A DNA stretch of 48,597 nt from an uncultured Bacilli bacterium (lineage in GTDB: Bacteria > Bacillota_I > Bacilli_A > RF39 > UBA660): NCBI GenBank assembly GCA_947626535.1, contig CANQSO010000003.1, positions 1-48,597 on the forward strand. Reading direction: 5' to 3'. The position numbers were made by a program, and so were the translations under genes. The notes under the pieces were generated by a model that did no database searches, had not been told where the DNA came from, and was given only the letters and a program-made list of their open reading frames with translations. This document shows positions 7,704-36,531 of this stretch, in pieces; position 1 is the first letter of the stretch, and each line of letters opens with the position of its first letter.

Positions 7704-8450
7704 TTAAATACTTTCTAAAGCTAAGAGGATCATATCATCTAATGATTGTTCACGATCTTTAATAGACATAAATTTTTCACTAAATTTACTATCAACAACC
7801 GTTAGAATAACTGATGCTTCTTTTGAAAAACTACTTGCAATATGAAAAAGCGCAAAACTTTCCATTTCTTCACCAATAATATCAAGATCTTCTGGTACTC
7901 TTTTTAAAACATGTTCATTATCAGAATAAAAACCAAATTGTTCAGTACACATTACACATCCTTCATGAATAGTTAAACCTTTCATTTTAGCATTTTCTAA
8001 AATTATTTTATTTAATTTTTTAGAAGGATAAGCTATATGGGTAGGATCTCCATTATAAGAATATGCAAAATTTCCTTCCGTATAACTAGCATTTGCTAAT
8101 ATTAAATCAGGTACATTTAAGTATTCTTTTAAACCACCACAGGTTCCAATCCGAATAATTCTTTCCACCCCAAAAAAGTAAAATAACTCAAAGGCATAGA
8201 TACTCATTGATGGCATTCCCATTCCAGAACCCATAACTGTAATGCGTTTATCACGGTACATTCCCGTATAAACAAACATATTTCTTGCATCACTTACTAA
8301 CTTATAATCAGTTAAATATTTTTCAGCTATATATTTAGCTCTTAAAGGATCTCCTGGCATAATAACAATTGGAGCTATATCACTTTTATCACAAGCAATA
8401 TGAGCCGGTTTGATATGATCCATTACTTTTGGTGCTTTCACCCTAATCAA
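7704..8450 (-). CDS. deoD: Purine-nucleoside phosphorylase
   Basis: IAPIVIMPGDPLRAKYIAE, RIIRIGTCGGL, GEEMESFALF. Confidence 0.93.
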   Translation of the reverse strand: MIRVKAPKVMDHIKPAHIACDKSDIAPIVIMPGDPLRAKYIAEKYLTDYKLVSDARNMFVYTGMYRDKRITVMGSGMGMPSMSIYAFELFYFFGVERIIRIGTCGGLKEYLNVPDLILANASYTEGNFAYSYNGDPTHIAYPSKKLNKIILENAKMKGLTIHEGCVMCTEQFGFYSDNEHVLKRVPEDLDIIGEEMESFALFHIASSFSKEASVILTVVDSKFSEKFMSIKDREQSLDDMILLALESI

Positions 8451-8531: not shown

Positions 8532-11500
8532 CTACTTTTTTAAAATATCAATATATACTTCTTCACCATTTAAATCATAACTATCAGTTAAATCTTCTTT
8601 TTTAATTAAATCTACTGCTAAAGTTTCTTTTTTAATATAATCATTAAACATTTCTAAAGATTTAATAAATTTATCAGGACCATTATAATAAATAATAATT
8701 CGATCAACAACATTTAAATCTTTTAATTTTCTTAAGTTTTGAACTTTACTAACAAATTCTCTTGCTAAACCTTCTAAAATTAATTCTTCACTTAATTCCG
8801 TATTTAAAATAACAAAATTATTATTTTCCATACCAACATTAAAACCATCTTTAGCATCAACTCTAATATCAACCATTTCTTTATTAACCTTTAATTCTTC
8901 ACCATCTAAATTTAAAGTAATTTCTTGATTATTTTGTAATAATTCAATTTCTTCGTTACTTAAATTTAATAAAGCTTCACTAAACAGTTTAATTTTAGGC
9001 CCTAAAATTTTACCTACAACTTTAAAATTAGGTTTTACTAAGAAGTTCATATATTCGCTTAAATTATCAATAAAACTTACTTCTTTAACATTTAATTCTT
9101 CTTTAATTAAAGAAACTAAATCATTAATTATTTTTTTATTTTTACCATCAATTAAAACTTCTTTTAATGGTTGTCTTACTTTAATTTTAGCTTCTTCTCT
9201 AACATATCTGCCAATGCTAATTAAATCACGAACTAAATCCATTTTGGCTTCAACATCTTCTAAAATTAAAGATTCATCAGCAACTGGAAAATCTTCTAAA
9301 TGAACAGATTCTTTACCAGTTAATTTTTGATATATTTCTTCGGTTGTAAATGGTATTATTGGGGCACATAACTTACATAGACCACATAATACTTCATAAG
9401 TTGTCATATAAACACTTTTCTTAGAATTATCTAATTCACTTTTCCAAAAACGATTCCTATTACGTCTAATATACCAATTAGATAAATGCTCAGATACAAA
9501 ATTAGTAATTAATTTAACAACTTGATTTAAGTCATATAGTTCATAATATTTAGTACATTCTAAGACTAAACGATTATATTTAGAGATTAACCATTTATCA
9601 ATTTCTTCACGATCATTTATTTTAACATAACAATCATCTATATCAATATGATCAGCATTAGCATACATTTGAAAGAAAGAATAAGTATTTTTAAACGGAT
9701 TAAAGAATTTAGAATGAACTTCTTTTACTCCTCCTTCATCATATTTTAAAGGAGTCCAGACTGGTGATGCATAAAACATATACCATCTTACATTATCAGC
9801 ACCATACTCCGTTAAAGCCACAGTTGGGTCAATAACATTTCCCGTAGATTTACTCATTTTTTTACCATTAGCATCTAATACCATATCATTAACGACAACA
9901 TTTTTAAAACTAGATTTACCAGAAATAATAGTTGAAATACAGATTAAAGCATTAAACCAACCACGAGTTTGATCTACTCCTTCGGCAATAAAATCAGCTG
10001 GAAATTGACTTTCAAATAATTCTTTATTTTCAAATGGATAATGGAAACTTGCATAAGGCATAGCTCCTGAATCAAACCAAACATCTAATACATCTAATAC
10101 TCTAGTCATGCGTCCATTACAATGTGGACATTTAAGATGTAGCTCATCAACATAAGGACGGTGTAATTCAATTTTACTTACATCAATATCTTCAATTAAC
10201 ATTTCTTGTAATTCTTTTAAAGAACCAATAACATGTTTTTCCCCACAATCATCACAAATCCATATTGGCATTGGACAACCCCAATATCTATTTCGACTAA
10301 TTCCCCAATCTACCATATTTTCAAGCCAATTATTAAATCTTTTTGTACCTACATATTCTGGATACCAATTAACACTTTTATTAGCTTCAATAATTTGATC
10401 TTTATATTCGGTTGTTCTTATATACCAAGCCGGTTTAGTAAAATAAATTAATGGTGAATGGCAACGCCAACAATGAGGATAATCATGATTCATCTTGATT
10501 TTTTTAAATAGCTTATCATTTTCTTTTAAATATTTGATAATATCTATTTCCAATTCAGGTGAAGTAACTAAAGTTCCTTTCCATGGCCCTTCCGTATAAC
10601 AGCCATCTTTACCTACTGGATTTACAAAGGCTACATTATTTTCAGCACATACCCGGTTATCATCTACACCATATGCTGGAGCAATATGAACAATTCCTGT
10701 TCCATCTTCACAAGTTACATAATTATCAGCAAGAACTTCAAAAGCTTTACCTTCAACTTTAACAAAAGGCATTAATTGTTCATATTTAATACCTACTAAA
10801 TCAGTTCCTTTAAAGGTTTCTAAAACTTTAAAATCATCACCTAAAACTTTTTCGGCTAAAGCTTCAGCTAAGATAAATTTATAACCCATTGATTCAGCTT
10901 TAATATAAGTTAATTCTGGATTTACACATAACGCAACATTAGCAAGTAAAGTCCATGGAGTTGTAGTCCAAACTAAGAAATACTCATCACTATCAACTCT
11001 TTTAAAAGGCACAATTACGGTATTTACAGATACATTTTCATATCCTTGTGATACTTCATTTGCAGATAGTTCAGTTCCACATCTTGGACAATATGGTAAA
11101 ACTTTATTACCATAATAGATGACTCCTTTTTTATCCATTTCTTTTATTAGCCACCATTCAGACTCAATAAATTCATTACTACAGGTTACATAAGGATGTT
11201 CACAATCAATAAATTGACCCATCATATCGGTTACTTCATTTATTTCATCAATATTTAAAGCCGTAGCCTTATTACATTCTTTACAAAAATTTTCAATACC
11301 AAAAGCTTCAATATCAGCTTTAGTCTTAAAACCTAACTTTTTTTCAACATTAACTTCAATTGGTAAGCCATGAGTATCAAGACCAATCTTTCTTAAAACT
11401 CGGTACCCTTGCATAGTTTTATATTTACAAAATGAATCTTTAATTGCTTTAGCTAAAACATGATGAATTCCTGGTTTAGCATTAGCATATATTGGTCCAT

Positions 11501-11642
11501 CATAAAATACCCAATCTTTTTTACCTTTACGATTATCAATAGTTTTATTTAGAATATCTATTCTTTTCCATTCTTCTAAAATATCATTTTCAACATCATG
11601 AACATTTCTTTTGTCTAATTCTTTAAAATCTTTCATAGCCAT
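8532..11642 (-). CDS. ileS: Isoleucyl-tRNA synthetase (type II-like) with rearranged signature motif GIHH
   Basis: DGPIYANAKPGIHHVLAKAIKD, GLDTHGLPIEVNVEKKLG, DVWFDSG, GKKMSKSTGN; preceded by a T-box leader with an AUC specifier. Confidence 0.95.
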   Translation of the reverse strand: MAMKDFKELDKRNVHDVENDILEEWKRIDILNKTIDNRKGKKDWVFYDGPIYANAKPGIHHVLAKAIKDSFCKYKTMQGYRVLRKIGLDTHGLPIEVNVEKKLGFKTKADIEAFGIENFCKECNKATALNIDEINEVTDMMGQFIDCEHPYVTCSNEFIESEWWLIKEMDKKGVIYYGNKVLPYCPRCGTELSANEVSQGYENVSVNTVIVPFKRVDSDEYFLVWTTTPWTLLANVALCVNPELTYIKAESMGYKFILAEALAEKVLGDDFKVLETFKGTDLVGIKYEQLMPFVKVEGKAFEVLADNYVTCEDGTGIVHIAPAYGVDDNRVCAENNVAFVNPVGKDGCYTEGPWKGTLVTSPELEIDIIKYLKENDKLFKKIKMNHDYPHCWRCHSPLIYFTKPAWYIRTTEYKDQIIEANKSVNWYPEYVGTKRFNNWLENMVDWGISRNRYWGCPMPIWICDDCGEKHVIGSLKELQEMLIEDIDVSKIELHRPYVDELHLKCPHCNGRMTRVLDVLDVWFDSGAMPYASFHYPFENKELFESQFPADFIAEGVDQTRGWFNALICISTIISGKSSFKNVVVNDMVLDANGKKMSKSTGNVIDPTVALTEYGADNVRWYMFYASPVWTPLKYDEGGVKEVHSKFFNPFKNTYSFFQMYANADHIDIDDCYVKINDREEIDKWLISKYNRLVLECTKYYELYDLNQVVKLITNFVSEHLSNWYIRRNRNRFWKSELDNSKKSVYMTTYEVLCGLCKLCAPIIPFTTEEIYQKLTGKESVHLEDFPVADESLILEDVEAKMDLVRDLISIGRYVREEAKIKVRQPLKEVLIDGKNKKIINDLVSLIKEELNVKEVSFIDNLSEYMNFLVKPNFKVVGKILGPKIKLFSEALLNLSNEEIELLQNNQEITLNLDGEELKVNKEMVDIRVDAKDGFNVGMENNNFVILNTELSEELILEGLAREFVSKVQNLRKLKDLNVVDRIIIYYNGPDKFIKSLEMFNDYIKKETLAVDLIKKEDLTDSYDLNGEEVYIDILKK

Positions 11643-11847
11643 CTTCCTTTCATAAAAAAAGATGATACCAAAGGAGTCAATAAGACGGTACCATCCTTAA
11701 TTTAACTTATTTAACAAGATAACGTTTGTTAACCGCAAAGATTATATAAGTGATATTTATAAAACTTCTTTATTTGGTTTCCACCAATACCAAACTCTCT
11801 TTAAAAGATAATTTTTATAAACGTGTCTTAACTCTTTTGACAAATAT
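11643..11847 (-). promoter_or_regulatory. T-box leader (tRNA-Ile-sensing riboswitch) of ileS
   Basis: Minus strand AGAGAGTTTGGTATTGGTGGAAACCAAA (Stem I), candidate AUC specifier at 11752-11754, T-box AAGGATGGTACCGTC, and terminator GATGGTACC...GGTATCATCTTTTTTT. Confidence 0.92.
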
Positions 11848-11884: not shown

Positions 11885-12226
11885 TTAAGCATTAAGTTGT
11901 AATTGGTAAGGTTCAGAATAAGTACCTTCACCTGATGTTATTGTTACATTTTTATTTAGATAACCGACCGGATCGACCTCGAACACGCCGTTTGCACCGC
12001 CGTAGCCGACAAGCCCAGAAGAATTGACACGGAACACACTGGAGGAGCTAGAAGAATACGGGGATAAAGTCCATAAAGTATCACTTGGTTTTAACCAGTC
12101 TGTTCCTCCACATTCACTTTGGTAATTAATATTTTCAACTGTTTTAGACCAATTAAATAATTCTTTTGCAAAACATTTTTCCCTTCCGATACTTCCTCCA
12201 TTTGTTGCATATCCATAATCACTTGA
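11885..12226 (-). pseudogene. 5'-truncated remnant of a secreted/surface protein gene with a DGR-like variable C-terminal domain
   Basis: Open minus frame with no start: SSDYGYATNGGSIGREKCFAKELFNWSKTVENINYQSECGGTDWLKPSDTLWTLSPYSSSSSVFRVNSSGLVGYGGANGVFEVDPVGYLNKNVTITSGEGTYSEPYQLQLNA*; an in-frame stop at 12227-12229 abuts the recombinase gene. Confidence 0.7.
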
Positions 12227-12248
12227 TTAACACCTATAAACCCACAGG

Positions 12249-14291
12249 TTAAAAATTCCATTGAATTTCTATATTTCTTAATCCAGTATCCTTATCTTTT
12301 TTTCCTATGATGATTTTATCTATCCATTCAGATATTATTTCAGAAGATAATTGATTTACATCATGATATTTTTCAAATAAACTTTTTGAATTTATCATTT
12401 GTTCTTGTTTAGCAACAACTATTTTTATTTCATTATTAATTTTTCTACTGCGTTCAACAAGATTTTTTTTATCTTCTTCATATTGTTTTACCAATAAAAA
12501 ATACTGTTCTGTAGTAATTGTTTCGTTTACTTTATCTTCGTAAAGATGTTGAAAAAATTTATCTTTCTTTTCTATTTCATTTTCTATTTTTTGTAACTCT
12601 TTCTTTAATGTTTCTTTTTTTTCATTGAAATATTTTTTATCAATATTTTCTTGGTTTAGTTGCTTTAATAGATTACCATTTTTATATTTCTCGATATTAT
12701 CATTTATTTTTTCAATAATATCTTTTTCTAATACATCAAGCCTTATTAGACTTCTATTATCACAGTCATGCCATTGTCGTTGTCTATCAGAACATACTAA
12801 GTATTCATGATTTCTATTTTTTGTTTTAGAAAATGTTTTGCCACAACACTCACAATAAACTTTTTTACTAAATGGATTTATTGTTCCAGTAGTGAACTGA
12901 CAAGTTGTTTGATTATTCATTCTGCTTTGAACACTATACCATGTATCTTTATCTATAATAGCATCGTGCATATTCTCTACAACTATCCATTCTTCTCGTG
13001 GCTTATGTTTTGATTTTTTTATCTTATAAGATATCTTTTCATATTTTCCTTGTACTGTATTTCCTATGTATGTTTCATTTCTTAGCATTTCTCTTATTGT
13101 ATACATACTCCAACTTGGCTTTTTTTCATAAGTGACAGTTGATAAAATATTATTTTCTTTAAGAACTTCTGTTAAGTAATTTAATTTTGCATTATTTGAA
13201 TTTGATGATACTTCAACCTCTAATTCATAAGATACTTTACCATATCTTTTTAATTCATTTATTAAGCAAATAACATACTTTGATTCATTTGGAATATAAT
13301 CATTTTCGTTAAGTTTATGATACTCATTTTCATTAGTTAAGTCCTCAATTTTAATATTTTCATTGTACGAAGTAGAATAAAATAATTGCATATTTTTATC
13401 TATTTTTCGTACTTTCATTTTTACGTTTTTCTTTATTGGACTTCCTAATTCTTCAACAAGTGTTCCTATTGTTATTATTTTTTCATATTTTTCTTTAATA
13501 GGATTTTCTATTGTGTTAAATATTATATAACTTCCCATATTTTGAATGTATTTTCTTTTTCTATTTTCACAAGAAGAATTTCCTATTTTAATTCCATTTA
13601 ATCTCTTATAATCGTAAGGACATAGTATATTTTCTGAATTTAAATACTTCAAAATTTTTACATATCCCCAACCATTTTTATACAATTCAAATATCTTTTT
13701 AACGTTTTCTGACGCTACTGGGTCTACAATTAAATGGTTTTTATCTTCTGGGTCTTTTAAATATCCATAAGGTGCTTGAGAGCTTGTAAATAAACCTTTT
13801 TCTTTTTTATTTCTTAATGTTGCTTTAATATTTTCTGATGTATCTTCTAAATACCATTCATCCGTCATTGCTGTTATTTGACTTGCTTTTTTGGTTTCTT
13901 TTCTAGTATTATCAATTCTATCAACACAAGCTACAAATCTAACTCCCCATTCTTTAAAATAATTGTGAATGTATTTATCTACTATCTCGATATCTCTTGC
14001 AAATCTTGACTGACTTTTACATAAAACGATATCGATATTTCCTTTTTCACATTCACTTATCATTTTATTAAAGTTTGGTCTATCCCTATCAGAACCAGAA
14101 TAATCTTCATCTTCATAAACTCCAACGACTTCCCAACCGTTTTCTTCTGCATATTTTCTTAACATCAATTCTTGATTTTTAATGCTTTCTGAACTGTCCT
14201 CAGGATTCTTTTCTAAATCTTCTTTTGATAATCTTATATAAAGTGCAACCCTCCTTAATGATTGATATAATTTAGTTATTTTATTTTTCAT
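12249..14291 (-). CDS. Large serine recombinase (integrase/excisionase)
   Basis: RRVALYIRLSKED catalytic serine region, DEDYSGSDRDRPNFNKM, SQSRFARD, Recombinase domain, CECCGKTFSK zinc ribbon, C-terminal coiled coil. Confidence 0.95.
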   Translation of the reverse strand: MKNKITKLYQSLRRVALYIRLSKEDLEKNPEDSSESIKNQELMLRKYAEENGWEVVGVYEDEDYSGSDRDRPNFNKMISECEKGNIDIVLCKSQSRFARDIEIVDKYIHNYFKEWGVRFVACVDRIDNTRKETKKASQITAMTDEWYLEDTSENIKATLRNKKEKGLFTSSQAPYGYLKDPEDKNHLIVDPVASENVKKIFELYKNGWGYVKILKYLNSENILCPYDYKRLNGIKIGNSSCENRKRKYIQNMGSYIIFNTIENPIKEKYEKIITIGTLVEELGSPIKKNVKMKVRKIDKNMQLFYSTSYNENIKIEDLTNENEYHKLNENDYIPNESKYVICLINELKRYGKVSYELEVEVSSNSNNAKLNYLTEVLKENNILSTVTYEKKPSWSMYTIREMLRNETYIGNTVQGKYEKISYKIKKSKHKPREEWIVVENMHDAIIDKDTWYSVQSRMNNQTTCQFTTGTINPFSKKVYCECCGKTFSKTKNRNHEYLVCSDRQRQWHDCDNRSLIRLDVLEKDIIEKINDNIEKYKNGNLLKQLNQENIDKKYFNEKKETLKKELQKIENEIEKKDKFFQHLYEDKVNETITTEQYFLLVKQYEEDKKNLVERSRKINNEIKIVVAKQEQMINSKSLFEKYHDVNQLSSEIISEWIDKIIIGKKDKDTGLRNIEIQWNF

Positions 14292-15467: not shown

Positions 15468-18400
15468 TTAAATTTCCATTTCTGTTTGCTTTTCATTTTC
15501 TTCTAAAGGATTAACTATATTTTCTTCATTTTCATTAATACCTAATTTTTTATATATTTTTTCTTTTTTTATTAGCAAATCTTTTAATTCTTCTTCTTTA
15601 TTAAAAGGTTTATTTAATTCCTCTTGAGTTTGTAAAATTTGCTTTTTTAAGTTTTCAATATTTTCTTTTTCTTCTTTTGCTTTTTCAGGAATACTTTTTA
15701 AAACATTTTCGATTTTGATAATATTACCTAACATATTAGTTGATAATTCTATTGGATATTTATTTTCACCTTTTAAATAATAATGATTTAATTTCATTAA
15801 TCCATCTTTAAATCCAATAATTTCAAAATTACTAATATGCCCTATTAATTCTTTTTCATATCCTATAGATGATATTACTTCTTGCAATTTTTGACTAGCA
15901 TCCGTTCTTTCATTATAATTAATTCCCTTTATTTCAATAAAGAATTTTTCACCAGAGATATCAACAACTTTAGGTATATCACTTTCAATAGCCTTTAATT
16001 TATTTTCACTTTCTTTTAAACGTTTTGGATAATTTACTGTAACATCATATTCCATTTCTCTTTTAGAAGATTCATAACGTGATTTTAGTAAACTAATTTG
16101 CTTTAGATCATTTTCTATTTTAAATTTTTCCATAATTAAAGGGTCGCCTGTAGCTATAGCTTTAACTTCTGCATAAGACAATGCACTATCATCTACATCA
16201 TTCATTGTTCTAGTACCAACTTCTGATGTCATTATTTGATTTATAAAATTAGCTTTTGTTTCAACTAATTGATATGAATATCCATCAAAACTTCCCTCAG
16301 TAACATATCTAAAAATTTGCACTTCTTCATTTTCATTGCCTTGTCTTAATATTCTTCCCTCTCGTTGTTCAATATCGCTTGGACGCCACGGACAATCTAA
16401 ATGATGTAGTGCTATCAATTTATTTTGAACATTCATGCCAGCTCCCATTTTTGATGTACTACCTAATAATATTCTAACTTTTCCATTTCTTACATCTTCA
16501 AACAATTCAGCTTTCTTTTGGTCGCTATCAGCATTATGAATAAAAGCAATTTCATTTTCATTTACACCTTTATTAATTAACTTTGCTTTAATGTCGTCAT
16601 AAACATTAAAACTTCCATCATTTTTTGGTGTTGATAAATCACAAAATACAAGTTGAGTTGATTTTTTATCTTTTGTATCCTCATATATTTTAAAAATGTT
16701 TTCAATAGCTATATTAACTTTACTATTAGCTAAATCGGGCATATTTTCATCTATAAGTCTTAAATCAAGTGCTGCCTTTCTTCCATCATTTGTTACTTTT
16801 AACATATTATCTTCATGTGGTGATACTTCACCATTTTTTATATCTTCACTTCGCTCTACTAATTCTTCTATATATTTAGTTATCTCTTCACTTTTTGGTG
16901 CTGAGATAATTTCGTATCTATTGAATTTTAATTTTGGAACAGGTAATTTTAAAGTTTTAGCTGTTTGAACATCAGCAACATTTTTAAACAAACTTAATAA
17001 TTCAGGGACATTATTAAACTTTGCAAATCTCGTTTTATTTCTAAAACCAGAGCCTTCGGGTGAAAGCTCTAAAGTTGTTACTGTTTGACCAAAGACACTT
17101 GCCCAACTATCAAAATAATCTAATCCTAATTTTTTTAATGTATCGTACTGTAAAAATTTTTGCATAGTATATAATTCAGCCATTGAATTTGATATTGGTG
17201 TTCCAGTTGCAAAAACAACGCATTTATTAGGGTTTTGTTTTTCTAAATATTGTATTTTCATATATAAATCGCTTGCTTTTTGACTAGCTACTTGACTAAC
17301 ACCACTAACATTAGTCATTTTTGAAAACAATGCCAAATTTTTAAATTCATGAGCCTCATCTACAAAAAGATAATCAACTCCTAATTCTTCAAAAGTTACA
17401 CCATCATCTTTTGGTGAATCTAATAATTTTTTTAAATTATTAGATAAAGATTTTTGGGTTGATTCCATTTTTTTAACACTTAGTCCCTCGCCATGAACAT
17501 TTTTAAGTCTATCTATTGCAATACTTATATTTCTTATTTCTTCGTTTATATGTTCTATTTCTAATTCTTTCGATACAGGTATTTTGCCAAATGAACTATG
17601 TCCTATAATTACAGCGTCCCATTCGCCCGTTGCAATTCGTGCCATAAGTTTTTTTCTATTATTTTTTTGAAAATCTTTTTTACTTGCAACTAAAATATTA
17701 GCGTTTGGATATAACTTTAAAAATTCCGAACCCCATTGTTCAGTTAAGTGATTTGGAACAACAAACATTGGTTTATTAGTAACTCCTAATCTTTTTAATT
17801 CCATACAAGCCGTTGCCATTTCAAAAGTTTTTCCAGCTCCTACCGTATGTGCTAATAATGTATTACCACCGAAAAGAATACGGGCAACTGCATTCTTTTG
17901 ATGTTCTCTTAATTGTATTGAACTAGACATACCTTTAAATTCTAAATTAGAGCCATCATATTCTCTTAATTTTATAGAATTAAATTTTTTATTATATAAG
18001 TCTACTAATTCTTTTTTTATATCTTCATTGCGATATATCCAATTCTTAAATTCTTCTTTTATTTCATCTTGCTTCTCACGAGCAATAGCAGTTTCCTTTG
18101 CATTAAAAACATAATTCATATCATCATCTCTATCAAATATTGAAATCATCTTTAAATTTAAAGACGATTTAATAAGTGTTAAAGCATCAGCTCGACTTGT
18201 TCCCCATGTTTTTGTATTCTTTATATTCCCATATTCAAAATTTACTCCTGCTCTTTGTAGAATCCAACTATTCATTTCAGGAACATAGTCTATAAATAAT
18301 TTATCTTCATACCTATATGATATATCAAGTAAATCAATGCAAAATCTTTTTATATAATCTGGTGGTATCCACACAGCTCCTAAAGAAATATCTATTTCTT

Positions 18401-21400
18401 CAGCAGTAAGCTCTTTAGGTTGAATACTTTTTAATGCTTGAATATTTTTATCTAATGAACCATCTTCATTTAGTTCTATTGCTTCTTGTAATTTTTCACG
18501 AACATTTCCACTTAAATATTCAGCTGATGTTACCCAAGTATCTTTATGTCTTTGTTTTGAAATTGTTGGTTCTTTATAAATCAAACCATCTAATTCTTCA
18601 AATACTTCATCTTCACTTTTATTAATTAAATTTGCTATATAAGGAATATCTACTAAACCTCTTTCATTTAATGAAATACTAAGTGCCTCAATAGAATTAT
18701 CAGCTTTTTCTATTTCTTTTGGTTTTCTTATTGTTCTTTCGTGAAATACTAAACCTTTTTTATAAAGTACTTTATCATCTTCTTTATATTCATCTTCAAT
18801 TGACGCTAGTAAATAACAGTCTGGGTCATCTGCAAATGCTTTCATATTTGCTTTATCATTTAAGAAACCATATTTTTTAACAAAACTATCATATTTTGCA
18901 TTTAATTCTTTTTGAACATTAACTAACTCGTTATCATCATCACTAGCTAATTGAATATCAAAAAGTTTCTTTAAACTATCTCTTATACCTATCATACCTA
19001 AGACGCGTTCAAAAACTTTTCCATCTTGTTTTGCGAGTGGAATCATAACTGAATCCACTCTTTGATAAATTTTATTATCAATTAAAACATAAGCATTATT
19101 TTTTACATTAGGTAGTGCTTGTAATACATCTTCTTCTTTTTCAATATTTTCATATTCTACTTTTTCATAAATGTTGCTATCAAATTTATTTATAACATCA
19201 TTAAGCATACTATTTAAGTCTTTATCTTCATCTGCTAATAAAACTGTATTATCACTACCATACATTGATTTATCATGTCCCATTTTTCCAAGTAACATAT
19301 CAGGGTGTTCAATATAATATTGATTTAAGGATATTTCATTTTCATCTAATGAAACATTTAACCAACTTGGATTAGCTTCTAAATCTATTTTACATTTCTT
19401 CTTCAAGAAAATAACATCACTATCAACTTTAGTATTTGCGATATTTTTAAATGTATTTTGTGGTAATCTAAAAGCTCCTATTAAGTCAGCACGTTCAGCA
19501 ATATACTTTCTTACTTTATCGTCAACTTTATCAAGTGTTCCAGTTGAAGTAACAAATGCAATTATTCCTCCAGCCCTAACCTTATCTAATGTTTTTTGAA
19601 AATAATAATCATGAATCAAAAAATTTGTCTTTTTATATTTCCTATCATATACCGAAACATTTCCAAATGGAATATTACTAATTGCAACATCAAAAAAGTT
19701 ATCTTGATAATTTGTATTTTCATAACCATTAATTTCAATTTTAGCATTAGGATATAATTTCTTAGCAATTCTTCCACTTATACTATCAAGTTCTATTCCG
19801 TATAAGTTAGAATTTTCTAATTCTTTAGGAATATTTCCAAAAAAATTACCAATTCCCATTGATGGCTCTAAGATATTACCTTTACTAAATCCCATTCTAT
19901 TTAGTATTTTCCACATTGTTTTAATTACATTATTTGGAGTATAAAATGAAGTTAAAGTTGATTCTCTAGCTTTAATATATTCTTCATCATTTAAAATATT
20001 TTTTAATTCTTTATATTCGCTTGACCATTCTTCTTTTCTTTCGTCAAATGCTTCAGGTATTCCACCCCATCCTGTGTATTTTGCCAAAATATCTTGTTCT
20101 TCTTTAGTAGCGTTTCTATTTTCATTTTCAAGATTCTTAAGTAATTTTATAGCCTCTACATTATTTTTAAATTTTGTTTTAGCACCACCATAATCAATAT
20201 CATTTTCAATAGCATAATTAGTTGGTTGAATATTTCTTTTTTCATAATCTTTTATTTCATTACCATCAAAATCATAATATCTATATTTTTTTTCGGATAA
20301 TGTCATACCATATTCACCTGGTATTAAGGATTGTTCTACTGTTCTATAATAATAATCTGGTTTGTCATTAACTTTATCTGTTTTAGGACTTATTATTTCT
20401 TCATCTTCTATAGATTCTTCTTTTGGTTCTTCTCTTGATTCATCAAAAAGATTTAATTGTTGCTGATAATTATTCATTTGAATATTATCATCTACTTCTT
20501 TTTCTTCTTCTATATCATCATCTTCATAATCCATATCATAACTATCCATATAATCTTCAGGAATTATAAATTCATCTTGATTCAAATGTCTATCAACGGC
20601 TTCATCAAATAATTCATCATATTCTTGTTCAGTCAATTTATAATTATCGATAAAATTACCATCTTTACTAGATTTAACATCATCAATTTGATAAACGTCA
20701 CTTAACCCAGCTTGTATTTTCTGCATACTTTCTAAAGCATTATTATATAATTCTTTTATTTCATCATATTGATAATATTCGTTTAAGCAAAAATTATTTA
20801 TATAGTCATTTACTTCATCTTCCGTATATTTATTATGTATATAATTTTCTGCTAAATTATTAACATATTTTTCTGTTTCCTTTTCACGTTCTTCTATTGA
20901 TAAAATAATGGTATCTAAATCTTCTTCTATAATTTCACCAACATTAGTATCTTCAACAAGTCCAATAGAATTATCATCTTTATCAACACCTATAAATTTA
21001 TAAACTATATCAAAATCTTCAATTTCTTCTTCTTCAAAACGTTCAGAGTTTACTTCATCTTCTGCTTTTCTAACATAAGTTTTACCAATATATTTAGAAA
21101 TATCAATTTGTTTATCTTCTTTTACTTCTTCACTAGCATTATCATTAAATAATTCTTGTTCTTGTAAAATATTTTCACTTTTTAGTTTTTCATTTTGTTC
21201 AACATTTAATACATTTTTTTCCTCGTCATCTCTAGTATTATGAATAGAATCAATATCTTCTCTTTTTATTATTTCATTTTCCACATAATAATCTAGCAAT
21301 AAAACTGTATCTTGTATATCTTCTAAAGTTTCATAATATCGTTCTACATATCTCTTATCTTCTTCAATTTTATCTTTTAAATCATTCAAATCAGTTAAAT

Positions 21401-22553
21401 TATATTTATCACATAAAATATCTAAAAATTGATAAGCGTCATTTAAGTCTTTTAAATTGTAATTATTATTTAGTATATTATTTTTATTTTTTTCTAATTT
21501 CTCTAATTTTTCCAATAACTCTATTTTTGGGAATTTTCTCTCTGCAATTAATTTTTCATAAGATTTATAAACGTCATTCCAAGTATATTTATATTTTATA
21601 TCATCATCTGTAGTTAAATAAAAGCCTTTTGAATCGTAATCAACAAATCCCTGTGTACCATTTAAAAAATAGTATGTTCTTCCACCTATTCCAAAACAAT
21701 TTCTTAATTCTTTTATTGCCGTCTGTTCATCATTAATAGTAGTTATAATTCGATATATTCCTTCTCCACCTTTTTGAGTATAATTTCCTATTTTTAAAGC
21801 ATTTTCAAATTCCATTTCTCTAGGATTTTCAGTTTCAAATAATGATGTTTGAAAATGTTTTTCATGAGTTGTATCATTCTTAATCTCTTTATTTTCTTCT
21901 TGTACTTCTTTTTTTATTTCATTTTTTAATTTCTTTTCTATATTTTTTATTTCAAACATTAAATTTCTATAAAAGAAATAACTTACATCTAATATGTATC
22001 CAAAATTTGTTTTTTCTATATTTTTCAAATTATTTTGATATTCAACATTTTTAAAACTTTCATCAATATTGTAACCACATTTATTCAATGTTAATAAACT
22101 TGTCGTAAATGCCACAAAATTTGTTTCTTGTTCATTAAAATTCAATTCTTTGCTTTTAATTAAACATTTAGTTATCATATTTAATGATTTAAAAAACATA
22201 TTATTATTATCTTCTAAATTTATGTTATATTTTTCTTTTAACTCATTAATAACATTATCAGCATATTGTTTATCAAATTTTTGAAATACTATATTTTTTC
22301 CATAAGTTTGAGATATATCAAACAAATAAAAATTAGAATTATTTATTCCTGTTAGTTTTACACCATGTTGTCCAGCAATTATTTTCCTACCAATACTATT
22401 CCAATCGTCATAAGTTGCAAACATCTTACCTTTAGGAAAATATTGATATAGTTTTACTATATTATCAATATTATAATAATTTGCTTTATAAAATTGTGAA
22501 GAATACTTTAAAAATTCTAACAAATTTTCCTTAATATTAAACTCCTGTATCAT
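15468..22553 (-). CDS. Very large polyvalent ICE protein: ArdC-like N-terminus, N6-adenine methylase-like domain, SNF2-like helicase
   Basis: N-terminal [39 protein letters not shown] and [25 protein letters not shown] (methylase motifs); [35 protein letters not shown] (helicase motifs). Confidence 0.9.
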
Positions 22554-23375: not shown

Positions 23376-25472
23376 TTATTTAACTTTTATTTCTAATCTA
23401 TTTTCATACTTTTCATCAGGAAACATTTTAAAATTAAATTCATATTCATCTTCATTAATTAATTGCACTAAATTCTCTAACTTTATTTGCGATAATGGTA
23501 TTGGAAAACCTATTACACAAACTACTTTATTTTCTTCTTCATAAAATTCAGTTTTATATTGTAAAGAATCTAACTGTATTTTTAAGTTGTTAATTAAATT
23601 ATCAAGTTTTTCTTTTTGACTTTCTAAGGTTAAATCTTTCACATTTAACAATTTATTTCTTCCACTTTTAATATCTTCAACAGTATAATAATAATCTGTA
23701 AATCTCTTTAAAGGACAACTTTTTCTTTGAATCATACCATCTTTAAATATTTTAAATTTTTTATAAAATACTGTATCTCTTAAAATTGGATGACCTACTA
23801 TTGGAAATATTATTGTTTTGTAATGTAACTGTTTTATTTCATCAGCCGTTAGTAGTGGCCTACCAATTAAATTAGTGCCTTTACTTCCACTTGCATTTAT
23901 GTTACTTAAAGAATAATTAATTGATGATGTTTCTAATGTTTTTGTTCCTAATAATTTACTAATTCTTTCAGCCGTATCTTGTGTATTAGTTTTTAAATAT
24001 GCTAAACCAGAATTATCTAAAATTGTTTGAGCAACTTCTTTACCATATACATTATCAAGTTGACTAAAAGACTGAATATACATATGAAATCTTAGTCCTC
24101 TTGACCTAGCTACTGAAATAATTGTTTCTATTTCTGGTAATGGTGGACAGTTGGCAAACTCATCTAAAATCCAGTCAATTTCTATTTTAGTTTTCTTTTC
24201 TTCTCTTGAATTAGCATATTTTGTTATTTCACGATAAAGTAACCCAATTATTATTGTTATTAAATTAAAATATATTTTTTCTTCATCAGGAACAATAATA
24301 TAAAATGCCGTTGGTACTTTGCCTAAAATATCTAACGGAAATGAAGAACTTGATATTATATTTTCAACATTAATATCATCAAACAAAGACATTTTTTCAT
24401 TAAAGACACTAGTTATAGATTTATATGTATTTTCACTACTAGCTAATATTGATGTTAAACTATCTTTACTCTTAGAGCCATACGGTTTTGATTCGATATA
24501 TCTTTTAAATTCTTCGGCATTATCTTCGGGCATAGAACTATTTTGAAATTTCTTTATTGCCGATAAAGTTATTTGACATCTTTCAATTTTTTTACTTTTA
24601 TAATCTTCTAAAAATAAACCTATTATTCCCTCCAATAAATTTCTAGCTGAATTATTCCAAAACGGGTCTTTTGTATCCTTTTCATTCATAATCATTGAAC
24701 TTATAAATGTTATTAATCTATTACACTCAGCATAATGATATAAAGACTTATTTTCATAATCTTGCTTTTTCTCTGTATCATCTTGAATACATTTTTCTAT
24801 AATAGATATATTACTTTCTAAATTTAATAAATGGTTTGTTGAATAATAATCTTTATCTTCAAATTCTTTATCGCTATTTATATAATCACATTCTTCTTTA
24901 TATATTTTTTTTCGATTTTTCATTTCGATAATTTTATTATCTAATTCATAAACATTATTTTCATTATCCATATATTTTTCATATTCTAATATACATGGTT
25001 CAAGCAAATTTATTTTATCCGAATTTTCTGGATGACGGAAATCAATTGTAATAATATTATAATTTTTTTCTTGAAACATTTTACTTGTTTTTGAAAAAAT
25101 TTCACCTTTAGGATCTGTTATAAAAACTGACCTATGTGTTTTAGCATTCGCAATAAATGAACATAATGGCAAAACACTTGTTGATGATTTACCACTTCCT
25201 GTTGAACCTAAATATACCCAGTGAGGTGTTTCATAATCAAACCATACATTTTTTAAGTTTTTATCAAAATAAATAGGAAAACCTACTTTATCAATATTAT
25301 TGAGGTTTTCCTTTTTAAAATTCTTCTTAATCTCTTGTACTGTTGACCATCTTGCTGAACCATGTTCATTACTATTTTTTAATTTTTGTTTAGACATTCT
25401 TGGTTCAATATAATACATAAAAAATACGATTAGTAAAATTAGCAATAAAATTATTATATAACTGTAATTCAT
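23376..25472 (-). CDS. Type IV coupling protein, VirD4/TraG family
   Basis: N-terminal TM; YLGSTGSGKSSTSVLP (Walker A), IDWILDEFANCPPLPEIETIISVARSRGLRFHMYIQSFSQL (Walker B region). Confidence 0.95.
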   Translation of the reverse strand: MNYSYIIILLLILLIVFFMYYIEPRMSKQKLKNSNEHGSARWSTVQEIKKNFKKENLNNIDKVGFPIYFDKNLKNVWFDYETPHWVYLGSTGSGKSSTSVLPLCSFIANAKTHRSVFITDPKGEIFSKTSKMFQEKNYNIITIDFRHPENSDKINLLEPCILEYEKYMDNENNVYELDNKIIEMKNRKKIYKEECDYINSDKEFEDKDYYSTNHLLNLESNISIIEKCIQDDTEKKQDYENKSLYHYAECNRLITFISSMIMNEKDTKDPFWNNSARNLLEGIIGLFLEDYKSKKIERCQITLSAIKKFQNSSMPEDNAEEFKRYIESKPYGSKSKDSLTSILASSENTYKSITSVFNEKMSLFDDINVENIISSSSFPLDILGKVPTAFYIIVPDEEKIYFNLITIIIGLLYREITKYANSREEKKTKIEIDWILDEFANCPPLPEIETIISVARSRGLRFHMYIQSFSQLDNVYGKEVAQTILDNSGLAYLKTNTQDTAERISKLLGTKTLETSSINYSLSNINASGSKGTNLIGRPLLTADEIKQLHYKTIIFPIVGHPILRDTVFYKKFKIFKDGMIQRKSCPLKRFTDYYYTVEDIKSGRNKLLNVKDLTLESQKEKLDNLINNLKIQLDSLQYKTEFYEEENKVVCVIGFPIPLSQIKLENLVQLINEDEYEFNFKMFPDEKYENRLEIKVK

Positions 25473-27081: not shown

Positions 27082-28434
27082 TCACCTCCAACTATTTTTT
27101 TCATAATCTTTATTAACAAATAATTCATGAAACTCTTTTGCATATTCTTCCATCTCTTCATTTAAGTTTTTTACTGCTTTCATAACATTTTGACTTATAA
27201 TAAATTTTTGATAGTTAGTATTTCCAGATAAGTTGTTTTTTAAAAGCATTAATTTTAAATCTTTATTTTTATATCTTTGATATTGCTCATAAGATAATTC
27301 TTGTAATAAGTCATCTAATGTTATTTTGTTTTCAGTATTTTTTGTTTTTAAAGTATTATATATTTTATTTGTTCTAAACATTGCATGATTAACTATTGCA
27401 TTTGATATAAAGCTATCTATATATTTTTCTTTTGTAATTACTAATTTATTTTCCTTTAAATTTTTTTCAAAATGATTTTGTTCATTTATTTTTAAGTAAT
27501 AATTATTTAACTTCTTTAAATCATTATTAACTTTTGACTTTTCTTTATATAAAATTGAACTCTTATCATCAAATAAATACTTTTTAATTTCATTAGTTAA
27601 AGATTTAATTTCTAAACCTATTTCATTATTTTTAATTGAACCATATTTAACTTTCTTTCCAACATTTCCATCTCTATACATATTTATTAGATAACCTAAT
27701 TTAATTATCTTCTCTTCCATTTTGATATTTTTAATATCTTTTAAAATAAAATTTTTATCTTTAGAATTAAAATATTTTTTTAATTCATCAATATCTTTAT
27801 TTAAATTAGTTATTAATGGTTTCATTATTGATTTTCTTTCTAATGAAATTACTGTTTGATTTAATAAAAATTCTCTTTCATCTTTTGTAATCATTCCTAA
27901 TCTTCGATAATTTATTTTTCCATCACGATTCATATAATTAGGTTTTAATTCTGTAAATGCTAAATGAATATGTAAATGATTTGTATTACCATGTATTGAA
28001 AAACAATATCGCATTTTTTTTATATCAACAAAACCACATTTTTTTAAAAACTTTGGTATTACTTCTTTAGCCATTACATTTTCTAATTCTTTAATTGTAA
28101 TTGTTTGATTTAACCATTCATTATCAAAACTTATTACACCTTTCCATAAGTTAGAATTTTCATTTGCTTTGATAAATTGCTTTTTTATTTTTTCTACATC
28201 TTTTGATGTAGCATATTTACCATTTTCCATAATTAGATTTAATTTGTTGTCTTGTTTACTACCCATATAATAATCAATCATTCCAACAACTTCTTTATTT
28301 TTATCAGCATAATAGTCAATCATATTATTAATATCAGTTTTAATTTTTTTAGTATCTTTTGAATTATGATTTAAAGGATTATTTAAACCATAAGTATACT
28401 TTCCTTTATAAATAACTTTAGGCGAGTTCATCAT
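27082..28434 (-). CDS. Conjugative relaxase (MobP/MobL-like)
   Basis: HGNTNHLHIHLAFTELKPNYMNRDGKINYRR, the HxHxH metal-binding motif of mobilization relaxases. Confidence 0.85.
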   Translation of the reverse strand: MMNSPKVIYKGKYTYGLNNPLNHNSKDTKKIKTDINNMIDYYADKNKEVVGMIDYYMGSKQDNKLNLIMENGKYATSKDVEKIKKQFIKANENSNLWKGVISFDNEWLNQTITIKELENVMAKEVIPKFLKKCGFVDIKKMRYCFSIHGNTNHLHIHLAFTELKPNYMNRDGKINYRRLGMITKDEREFLLNQTVISLERKSIMKPLITNLNKDIDELKKYFNSKDKNFILKDIKNIKMEEKIIKLGYLINMYRDGNVGKKVKYGSIKNNEIGLEIKSLTNEIKKYLFDDKSSILYKEKSKVNNDLKKLNNYYLKINEQNHFEKNLKENKLVITKEKYIDSFISNAIVNHAMFRTNKIYNTLKTKNTENKITLDDLLQELSYEQYQRYKNKDLKLMLLKNNLSGNTNYQKFIISQNVMKAVKNLNEEMEEYAKEFHELFVNKDYEKNSWR

Positions 28435-29251: not shown

Positions 29252-30154
29252 TTATCTCAATATCGGTGGTTTTAGATAATCTTCATCTTTGTTTGGAATA
29301 TTTATATCATCTTCTGAAAAACTTACTAAACTCATTCCATCTACATATTTATTATTTTCATCTCTTACTTCAAAATGTAAATGGTCACCTGTTGAATTTC
29401 CTGTCGTACCAACAAAAGCTAGTGTTTGATTTTTACTAACTGTATCCCCAACTTTTACTTTGCTACTATTAGGAAATAGATGTCCATAAATTACACTATA
29501 TTTTGGATTAATATCATTACATTCTAACATAATATAATTTCCATAACCACCAGCCATATCTGGTATGTTTTCTTGATATGTAAATGAATTTGTTATTATT
29601 TTTCCGTCGCATACTGCTTTTACTTCTGGTTTAGAATTACTTGCCAAGTCCCATGCTTTATGAACATTAAATTCATTATTTACTATTCTTTGCTCCATAA
29701 AAAATGATGTAATTACAACCTTAGAAAAATCTATTGGTTTTGCAAATGGTTTATTTTGATATTCATCTATTTGACCACTTACTTGTATTTCATCACTAGC
29801 ACATCCATAATAAAATTTTTTATTTAATGTTTCACACACACTACTTATTGGTTTCATTCTTTTAAGTTCTACATCTAAATTATCTTCATAAATTTCCGAC
29901 ATATTTGAATTTTCATTTCTTAAATAAAAATATAATATTCTTTCTAGTGATACATAACCGTCTTGCTTTTCTACTAAATGTTCATTTAAAATACTTGTAT
30001 ATTCACTAGCATATTGAAAATTATCTTCTACATAACCATCAGTTGTATTAACTCCAAAAAAATTCATAATTAACATACATGGTATTAAAATTATTAATCC
30101 AATTAATAAACCACCTACTACAAAAGGCATAATAATTAATAAAACTTTTTTCAT
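29252..30154 (-). CDS. M23-family peptidase, conjugation-associated cell-wall hydrolase
   Basis: N-terminal TM; NEFNVHKAWDLAS, YGNYIMLE, YGHLFPNSSKVKVGDTVSKNQTLAFVGTTGNSTGDHLHFEVRD. Confidence 0.92.
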   Translation of the reverse strand: MKKVLLIIMPFVVGGLLIGLIILIPCMLIMNFFGVNTTDGYVEDNFQYASEYTSILNEHLVEKQDGYVSLERILYFYLRNENSNMSEIYEDNLDVELKRMKPISSVCETLNKKFYYGCASDEIQVSGQIDEYQNKPFAKPIDFSKVVITSFFMEQRIVNNEFNVHKAWDLASNSKPEVKAVCDGKIITNSFTYQENIPDMAGGYGNYIMLECNDINPKYSVIYGHLFPNSSKVKVGDTVSKNQTLAFVGTTGNSTGDHLHFEVRDENNKYVDGMSLVSFSEDDINIPNKDEDYLKPPILR

Positions 30155-30393
30155 GTTTTATTTGCCTTTTTTATTTTTTCTACTGTGTAATATTTATTAT
30201 GTTTACACTTTACTCCACGTATCTTTTTTAATTCATTTCCAATTATTGACGCTGGAACTAAATCATATAAAACATCTGTAAATTCTTCATTAGGATCTTC
30301 AAAATCTTCTCTACATAATTCCTTAAATTCTTTTTTTATTATATATTTTTTTGTATTTTCTTCTTGTTTTTCATTTCTTATACTTTTACTCAT
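30151..30393 (-). CDS. Small hypothetical protein in transfer operon
   Basis: 80-aa ORF overlapping both neighbours by short ATG/stop overlaps. Confidence 0.6.
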   Translation of the reverse strand: MSKSIRNEKQEENTKKYIIKKEFKELCREDFEDPNEEFTDVLYDLVPASIIGNELKKIRGVKCKHNKYYTVEKIKKANKT

Positions 30394-32882
30394 TATTCCT
30401 CACCCATTAGTTGCCTTTCTAGTTCTGTTGCTCTAACCCATAATCGAACTCTTTTTTTATTTGTTATATTTAGCAAAAACATTCCTTGTTTTGCTTTTAA
30501 TAAAAATTCTTTTTGGGTATCAGTTAAAGGGTTTTGCTTAAATAATTCTAAATAAGCACTTAAATCATCTTCCTTTAACATACCCGTTAATTGATATTGA
30601 CAGTTATTAAATATTGCTGTAGCGTGTCTTAAAATATTTGCTGAACCAATAAAATCTCTTACCGACTGTGTGGCACATACAAAAGAAGAAGAATACTTTC
30701 TTAATCTTCTTGCCATTTGTCCAAAATTTTTTAAAATTTCCATGTTATCTTCATCTATAAATAAATGAAATTCATCAACTACAACCATAATATGTTTTTT
30801 ATCATTTTGATTTTTTATTGATTCATTTTCAATTTTATTTTTTACTATTGCATTATTTAAATAAGTTAAAATGTTTAATACTTGTGTATTTATTAATCTT
30901 CTATTATCGCTAAATAATAATTCTTGCAAATTGAAACCAATTAAATTACTACTTCCTAAATCTAAATTAGTATAATCATTAAATAAAAAGGAATCAGTAC
31001 CTACTAAAAATCTTTCTAATAATATATCAATTTGTTCTATAATTTTAGCTTTTTCTTTTATTTGTTCCTTTTCTTTTTCTTCTTTGATAAACTTTTTTAA
31101 ATCATCAAAAATTGGAAATTCACTTGGTTTCATATTTTCTATCATTGATATTGTTGAATTTTTTGTAATTCCAAAATTTGCGTATAGTTTTTCAGTTTCT
31201 TCTAGCAATACAACTAATTCTTTCTCACTTATTTCTTCAAAAGCACATTTATAAAATGTTTCTAAAAAACCCATGTGTTTTGCTAATGGACAATTAGCTA
31301 TATCACTTTCATTATCTTCATTTTCAACTGGCAAGAATCTAACTTGTAGTGGATTTATTATTCCACCACTTTTTGAATACAAATCTATGTATTCGCCATG
31401 ATTATTATCTACTAATTTTTTGTATTCTGCCTCAGCATCAAATACGAAAACTTTAATTCCTTGATTTACTGCATTAGTAATTATCTTTTTTAAAGTAAAA
31501 CTTTTTCCACCACCTGTCGAGGCTACTATCGATAAGTTATGACTTGTTCTGTTTGAATCTAAACAAAACATATCAAAAAATACTGGCAATGCCGTGTGTG
31601 TATCTATTCCCATCATTATTCCTTTTTTATCATTAAATTTAGTTGTAGTTAATGGAAATCCTGCTGATAATGTGAGTGTAGGAAAATACATTGCATAATC
31701 ATCTAAAAAATTACTTGATATATCATAGGCTTGCCAAGTTTCATATTGTCTTAATCTCGTTACATCTAATTTAATTTTATAATTAGAAGCTAATCTTTTT
31801 AATTCATTTCTAACTTCTTCTCGTTTTTTCTTATCGCCTTTTACTACAATAATAAAATTTACTTTTTTTATTTTTTCATCACCATTTTTAATTTGGTCCA
31901 TTAATATTTGATAACTCTCTTTTAATGTATCTAATTCAGTTGCATCCGAAAGTTTTTTTGTTGTTGCTCTATCCGATAGTAAAAACTGATATGAGCTATC
32001 TATTACTTTTACTAATTCATCTGTATTTAATGTATCTTTTATATGAATACAACATCTAGTATTTGGCAAATTAAATATTTGTTCAAAAAAAGAACCCTCT
32101 AAAAAAAGAGGAACACTTTTTATTGACAATAATTCAATTTCTTCATCATCTATTTTAATTAGATTACTTTTTTCTGATATATTTAATGGAACAATTAAGT
32201 CCGTTAAATTACACCACATTATTTTTTCTAAATCAGTTTTACCACAATATAAATTCATTAAAAAGTGATACACTTCATATCGATTATTTATTTCATCTAT
32301 ATTTATTCTAGGATTAATTCCATAACTTACTCTCATTACTTCATCAATATTTTTCTTAAGTTCGGATTCACTACTTGCCGACAGCAAAAAATAGTAACTA
32401 TTTGATACTACATATTCATCATTTTCTAATTTTTCAATTAATTCATATCTTTCTTGTAAAAATTTTTGTTTTTCTAAATCATCTTTAAATTTTTTCATTA
32501 ATTCTAAAATATAATCTTTATTATCATTTAAGTTAATCTTTTCATCTAATTTATAAATTCTTAAATCTAAATTGCTTACTTGATATAAATATTTTAACTG
32601 TGAAAAAAATGTCATTAATTGTGAATCACTTGATAAAGATAAATCTATTGCCTCGACTGTAAATACTTTAGCTACTTCATTATTCTTTAAATGAATTAAG
32701 CCATTTTCATCAACATAATCAGTTATCATAAATGATTGAGAATTTTTCATCATTTTATTTAACTGTGTTTTAGTAATATATTCCTTATATTTTTTTTCTT
32801 TTCTATTTTTTCCTTTTAAAATGATTTGTTTTTCTTTTTCTTCCTTTTTTTCTTGTTTATTCAAATTATAACCCCCTCTCAA
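30393..32882 (-). CDS. VirB4-family conjugation ATPase
   Basis: LSIVASTGGGKSFTLKKII (Walker A), HIMVVVDEFHLFID (Walker B), ATQSVRDF. Confidence 0.95.
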   Translation of the reverse strand: MRGGYNLNKQEKKEEKEKQIILKGKNRKEKKYKEYITKTQLNKMMKNSQSFMITDYVDENGLIHLKNNEVAKVFTVEAIDLSLSSDSQLMTFFSQLKYLYQVSNLDLRIYKLDEKINLNDNKDYILELMKKFKDDLEKQKFLQERYELIEKLENDEYVVSNSYYFLLSASSESELKKNIDEVMRVSYGINPRINIDEINNRYEVYHFLMNLYCGKTDLEKIMWCNLTDLIVPLNISEKSNLIKIDDEEIELLSIKSVPLFLEGSFFEQIFNLPNTRCCIHIKDTLNTDELVKVIDSSYQFLLSDRATTKKLSDATELDTLKESYQILMDQIKNGDEKIKKVNFIIVVKGDKKKREEVRNELKRLASNYKIKLDVTRLRQYETWQAYDISSNFLDDYAMYFPTLTLSAGFPLTTTKFNDKKGIMMGIDTHTALPVFFDMFCLDSNRTSHNLSIVASTGGGKSFTLKKIITNAVNQGIKVFVFDAEAEYKKLVDNNHGEYIDLYSKSGGIINPLQVRFLPVENEDNESDIANCPLAKHMGFLETFYKCAFEEISEKELVVLLEETEKLYANFGITKNSTISMIENMKPSEFPIFDDLKKFIKEEKEKEQIKEKAKIIEQIDILLERFLVGTDSFLFNDYTNLDLGSSNLIGFNLQELLFSDNRRLINTQVLNILTYLNNAIVKNKIENESIKNQNDKKHIMVVVDEFHLFIDEDNMEILKNFGQMARRLRKYSSSFVCATQSVRDFIGSANILRHATAIFNNCQYQLTGMLKEDDLSAYLELFKQNPLTDTQKEFLLKAKQGMFLLNITNKKRVRLWVRATELERQLMGEE

Positions 32883-36501: not shown

Positions 36502-36531
36502 AAAAAGGCCTACTTTTTAGTAGAACCTTTT
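36502..36531 (-). terminator. Rho-independent terminator overlapping the 3' end of the adhesin gene
   Basis: Minus strand AAAAGGTTCTACTAAAAAGTAGGCCTTTTT hairpin plus T-run. Confidence 0.65.

Follow-up and report, generated by a model that had tools for sequence, protein, structure and literature searches.

The window, which is the whole stretch of 48,597 nucleotides that was analysed, carries ileS on its minus strand, placed between a T-box leader and a deoD-like gene. The features of this locus are as follows.

8532..11642, minus strand: ileS, type 2 isoleucyl-tRNA synthetase of 1036 aa (TIGR00392, PDB matches, AlphaFold/Foldseek)
11460..11471, minus strand: class I signature in swapped form, GIHH at aa 58-61 (codons GGA ATT CAT CAT; column check)
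9846..9860, minus strand: KMSKS at aa 595-599; the HIGH congeners have KMHKS here
11487..11489, minus strand: Tyr52, in the column of E. coli IleRS Tyr59 (PIYANAKPGIHH aligned with IleRS1 PPYANGSIHLGH)
10029..10043, minus strand: HYPFE, aa 534-538, IleRS2/eukaryote-like signature (as given in PMC4861432)
11669..11838, minus strand: T-box leader (RF00230, E 5.2e-8), with specifier AUC at 11752-11754 and T-box element AGGAUGGUACCG
7704..8450, minus strand: deoD-like purine-nucleoside phosphorylase; its downstream place is conserved (after ileS in L010, after IleRS1 in L037)

The product of ileS was compared with both types of bacterial isoleucyl-tRNA synthetase. The match with TIGR00392 was of 928 bits (cut-off 621), and the top PDB sequence matches were 8c8w, 8c9d, 8c8u and 8c8v, all from P. 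megaterium IleRS2, with 925 bits for IleRS2 against 376 for IleRS1; Foldseek ranked the two types likewise, and for the AlphaFold model (pLDDT 84) its best matches were 8c8v and 8c8w with TM 0.83. The published signatures of IleRS2 are the presence of HYPFE, the absence of NKIL and SSL, and Phe or Thr in place of Tyr59 (PMC4861432). Here HYPFE is present, AKAIKD replaces the NKIL and GWFNALIC the SSL of bacterial IleRS1, and the C-terminal zinc-binding cysteines are absent as in IleRS2, the last Cys lying no later than residue 841. The enzyme is thus of type II, as the earlier note had proposed. Residue 52 in the Tyr59 column is Tyr and not the expected Phe or Thr; this is a minor signature, and every other feature points to IleRS2. 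The same column holds Tyr in 51 of the 166 IleRS2 rows of the family and otherwise Thr or Phe, with Thr in the HIGH congeners. In E. coli IleRS, Tyr59 is a pre-transfer editing residue (PMC4861432), and Tyr52 in an IleRS2 may affect tRNA-dependent pre-transfer editing. MupA and MupB are homologous IleRS2 enzymes (927 and 877 bits), but these scores are far under the curated cut-off of 1900 bits, and membership of MupA (NF000257, 927 bits) was rejected; ileS is here a chromosomal housekeeping gene, whereas theirs is an acquired second copy.

The letters at 11460-11471 are atgatgaattcc, which read GGA ATT CAT CAT on the minus strand, and the swap of motif positions 1 and 3 described in the earlier note was confirmed along with these codons. 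The signature motif of IleRS2 from P. megaterium, GVHH in 8c8w and HVGH in 8c8u, is matched by GIHH without gaps, and so is the HXGH of IleRS1, exactly in the HIGH column as had been claimed; a scan of the 1036-aa protein for a second, canonical HxGH gave none outside this column. KMSKS, said to be intact, was likewise found so. GIHH is common to the window genome and three other genomes of its lineage, and G[ILV]HH stands in 163 of the 166 IleRS2 rows of the family in which the motif is covered, so it is not a sequencing slip. As to whether this is the sole ileS, one was found in the window genome (68% complete), where the remaining matches were ValRS-like and LeuRS-like pieces, and one was detected in the sister genome G022 (92% complete).

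In published work G/AXHH was present in 86 of 163 IleRS2 sequences and in none of IleRS1 (Brkic et al. 2023, PMC10485003). The D. radiodurans IleRS2 (ALHH) has a Ki for mupirocin of 6.6 mM, which dropped 823-fold on restoring HVGH, and GVHH put into two canonical IleRS2 enzymes gave gains of about 200-fold; catalysis by the third-position His and its blocking of mupirocin were derived from structures (PMC10485003). The present enzyme resembles the GXHH/AXHH IleRS2 of S. griseus and D. radiodurans in being of type 2, in having positions 1 and 3 swapped and in its KMSKS loop (PMC10485003). Since swapped motifs with Ki values in the mM range are already published, GIHH is of a known kind and predicts mupirocin hyper-resistance, a tie that the earlier note had drawn correctly. 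By this analogy intrinsic hyper-resistance is a sound prediction. The enzyme would work as an ordinary IleRS in which His60, at motif position 3, takes over the role of the first His of HxGH, as the IleRS2 geometry permits; His60 should also clash with mupirocin and bring its Ki into the mM range.

The earlier note had further given ileS a core location and T-box control, and both points were supported, the T-box by a match under the gathering score. The leader matched RF00230 with 42.8 bits against a gathering score of 93, so that a search at the Rfam gathering threshold gave no T-box and a permissive search recovered it; the AUC specifier and the UGGU bulge are present, and the specifier was confirmed by comparison with the leader of L073, the ileS of a rabbit Bacilli MAG. 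The stem II region is missing from the ileS T-box of the genus (window, L010, L007 and L037) and present in L073, and the leaders of the genus score 43-46 bits against 116 for L073. Over 304 nt of leader and gene start, the identity to L010 is 93%. In the congener G024 an IleRS1 ORF with HLGH (L037, contig G024:C11) is flanked by the genus T-box leader (83% identical to that of the window) and the deoD-like gene (81%), and therefore the locus accepts the other enzyme type under the same regulation. The congener G021 has a partial IleRS2 with GLHH (L038) and also L036 (G021:C24), a divergent IleRS2 of 35% identity with GVHH, KFSKS and its own T-box, which is either a second copy or contamination.

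The motif-bearing half of ileS is an import, and this goes beyond what the earlier note could see. The gene is divided into three parts.

11548..11642, minus strand: resident 5' gene end, about aa 1-31 (98% nt identity to L010 over aa 1-20 and 98% to L035 over aa 21-40)
9760..11547, minus strand: imported cassette, about aa 32-628, with the catalytic core (GIHH and KMSKS) and the connective and editing domains (permutation test, core tree)
8532..9759, minus strand: resident 3' part, anticodon-binding and C-terminal domains (mostly 90-98% nt identity to the HIGH congener L010)

In windows of 20 codons, identity to L010 or L035 is 92-98% for the first 35 codons or so. In the middle of the gene it drops to mostly 55-80% with these two, against mostly 77-97% with L073, and from about codon 641 onward L010 is again the close relative, at 90-98% in most windows. 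A block search was done with L010 as the resident parent, L073 as the donor parent and 20000 permutations. The best block was gene nt 95-1882 (window 9760-11547, the edges being uncertain within about 11505-11573 and 9699-9760), with 439 donor-type against 101 resident-type sites inside and 58 against 515 outside; its score was 338 and the highest among the 20000 permutations was 46. In AU tests, joining the C-terminal part with the donor L073 was rejected (p 6e-76), and so was joining the core with the congeners L010, L035 and L013 (p 3e-8). The same mosaic with both junctions was found in G022, G025 and G033 at 98-99% protein identity. The edges are sharp, the phylogenies conflict and the signal lies beyond chance, which is excluded by the permutations, the tree tests and the four genomes together; assembly error is an unlikely source.

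The direction of the exchange was read from the rest of the genome. On the gyrA+rpoB tree the window lineage is nested among the HIGH congeners, and the genomes of L073 and L074 are in a distant clade; gyrA identity is even along the gene, at 80-88% to G028 and 65-66% to G230, the genome of L073, whereas the ileS core is 86% identical to L073 at nucleotide level and is its sister on the core tree. Thus the block was imported into a resident gene, and its donor was a relative of L073, not L073 itself, given the 86%. From the resident were kept the T-box leader, the first 31 codons or so, and the anticodon-binding and C-terminal domains. Taken together, the gene is very likely the T-box-regulated housekeeping IleRS2 of an uncultured Bacilli lineage, with a catalytic and editing part of foreign origin. 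In the ancestor, homologous recombination would have put in place of codons of about 32-630 a cassette whose relatives sit in a distant genus of the same family, and so probably turned a HIGH/KMHKS enzyme into a GIHH/KMSKS one.

The motif was then surveyed in 37 genomes of the genus and in a sample of 195 genomes of the family. Within the genus GLHH is present in most genomes, HIGH with KMHKS in G028, G027 and G031 (L010, L013 and L035), GIHH with KMSKS in the window genome and three near relatives, and an IleRS1 in G024. Among the 166 family rows, HIGH was seen in L010, L013 and L035 only, and KMHKS replaces KMSKS in at least a quarter of the IleRS2 rows, including L010, L013, L017 and L023. 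IleRS1 occurs in 26 of the 195 genomes, where a type 2 query gives cross-hits at most, and therefore no genome was seen with both types; HXGH was present in all 12 family IleRS1 loci checked and in L037. Among IleRS2 of other Bacilli families, all three that cover the motif have HIGH or HVGH. The phylum-wide sample fell inside the same class and added nothing. The lineage that the earlier note suggested to be intrinsically mupirocin-insensitive is mixed in its motif: HIGH stands in the closest congeners and an IleRS1 in another.

The three HIGH enzymes form a single clade of the core tree, surrounded by GXHH rows, and the tree as a whole shows one change of state; the sister species thus went back naturally from GXHH to HIGH, a case resembling the reversion reported for Deinococcus-Thermus. 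The changed residues 58-64 of the trio could have come by mutation or by a very short conversion tract. Origin of this HIGH from other Bacilli IleRS2 (PPTANGKPHIGHVLTR...) was unsupported; PATANGMP...FLKD, which surrounds it, belongs to the family itself. The closest relatives of the resident gene carry HIGH, and we infer with good confidence that the last ancestor did so too; this is left as an inference since a HIGH cassette could have spread among the three congeners. The swap was lost and then regained within one genus.

The exchange is not confined to this lineage. Residue 52 (T, F or Y) served as the label of the core type, and changes of this label were counted on trees of protein parts. 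It needs 2-6 changes on the tree of any larger part of aa 75-640, but the count rises to 31 for aa 641-760 and to 44-52 for the parts beyond, and is 28 for aa 2-50; shuffled labels give about 71. Twelve core types gave 11, 11 and 11 changes inside the core and 41 and 56 outside; C-terminal types show the opposite pattern, and it is with the C-terminal part that genus membership agrees most closely, needing 2 changes there and 7-8 on the core. A matched sample gave counts for IleRS2 of 9-12 within the core and 21-34 when the edge was crossed. The ValRS control showed moderate disagreement throughout and no edge; given this ValRS noise the absolute exchange counts are upper bounds. A second clear case is given by L023/L024, where identity is 89% between the C-terminal parts and 72% between the cores and the motif types differ. 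The stretch of aa ~50-640 recombines as a unit throughout the family, and the edges of this cassette lie at domain boundaries. The HUP domain of P. megaterium IleRS2 comprises residues 40-168 and 513-632 (PMC10485003), which by alignment corresponds to a span of about 44-637 here; in the model, residue 43 opens the first HUP strand and residue 636 the long helix that runs to the anticodon-binding domain, and the cassette edges agree with this domain plan.

It may be that the catalytic-plus-editing half of ileS2 is an allelic cassette with many inter-genus exchanges and fixed edges, maintained by natural IleRS inhibitors, in which HIGH/GXHH, the KMSKS type and residue 52 travel together and the T-box leader and anticodon-binding domain form the resident frame; we regard this as a nearly balanced proposition. 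Natural inhibitors may plausibly have selected for the exchange in the window lineage. Its serious rival is neutral exchange, by which frequent homologous recombination in the gut community, with conserved DNA at either edge, carries the motif along as a hitchhiker. The cassette edges do fall close to conserved DNA, most exchanges in the family replace one GXHH core by another and leave the motif unchanged, and no inhibitor gene was seen nearby. On the other hand, the ValRS of the same family has no comparable block, which indicates something particular to ileS, and a change from HIGH to GIHH is expected to shift the drug response about 100-1000-fold (PMC10485003). Neutral exchange is a real possibility, though on the doubtful side of even.

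The reverse direction, with GIHH resident and a HIGH core imported into L010, L013 and L035, would suit the tightness of the HIGH clade, whose cores could have passed among the three species; it is improbable, as the HIGH cores are sister to those of the congeners G019, G020 and G021 (98*) and the core of the window gene has its sister in a distant genus. Vertical inheritance, with the window gene as one more copy of a family-wide GXHH enzyme, draws on those 163 of 166 rows and is very improbable, being refuted for this gene by the permutation and AU tests, by the conflicting relatives and sharp edges of its parts, and by HIGH in the sister species that share its ends. An artefact of metagenome assembly or binning is hardly credible either: all genomes involved are MAGs, the closest ones incomplete and the four mosaic carriers 67-92% complete, but the reading frame is intact, the pattern recurs in other lineages (L023/L024) and family-wide, and sharing of the block and both its junctions by four separate MAGs argues against it.

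With import of the cassette as the preferred reading, the motif is of a known kind and the route by which it came and went is new. Previously the motif was described as changing seldom and on deep IleRS2 branches, with the swap acquired at least twice and a reversion in Deinococcus-Thermus (PMC10485003); here it was lost and regained inside a single genus of a Bacilli family, the regain by intragenic import, and a text search of PMC10485003 for recombination gave nothing. P. megaterium IleRS2 (8c8v; GVHH mutant 8c8w) is the best full-length match in sequence and fold, but its wild type has HVGH and a canonical IleRS1 is also present (PMC10485003), whereas here IleRS2 is the only ileS found and lies behind an Ile T-box. 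Given reversion and domain-scale recombination in one genus, the putatively resistant active site of an essential enzyme can pass in a housekeeping gene with no resistance plasmid. In pneumococcal pbp2x a drug-target domain block is replaced by homologous recombination from related species. The present mosaic is alike in the exchange of such a block, but concerns an essential tRNA synthetase on which drug selection may act, is family-wide and has its edges at domain boundaries. Searches of the literature for tRNA synthetase genes of mosaic structure gave no relevant paper, which does not prove absence. The HIGH enzymes (L010, L013, L035) and the sister GXHH cores (L023, L038, L040) form natural pairs for the cost and gain of the swap, and the sharp edge between catalytic and anticodon-binding parts is a natural experiment on the modularity of tRNA synthetases.

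An integrative conjugative element, followed over window 11885-41000, begins just upstream of the ileS T-box and has the following parts.

12249-14291: serine recombinase
15468-22553: helicase of 2361 aa
22537-23142: sortase
23376-25472: VirD4-like protein
27082-28434: MobL relaxase
29252-30154: M23 peptidase
30393-32882: TraG P-loop protein
36510-40625: SpaA-type surface protein

Upstream of ileS, G025 and G028 stop matching the window at the start of the element and G028 has other genes there, so the element is not needed for the shared mosaic. It adjoins what is left of a gene, a 3' remnant at about 11885-12247; the sister genome G022 has this gene intact (L267:406-1053), as though the element had been inserted into it in the window.
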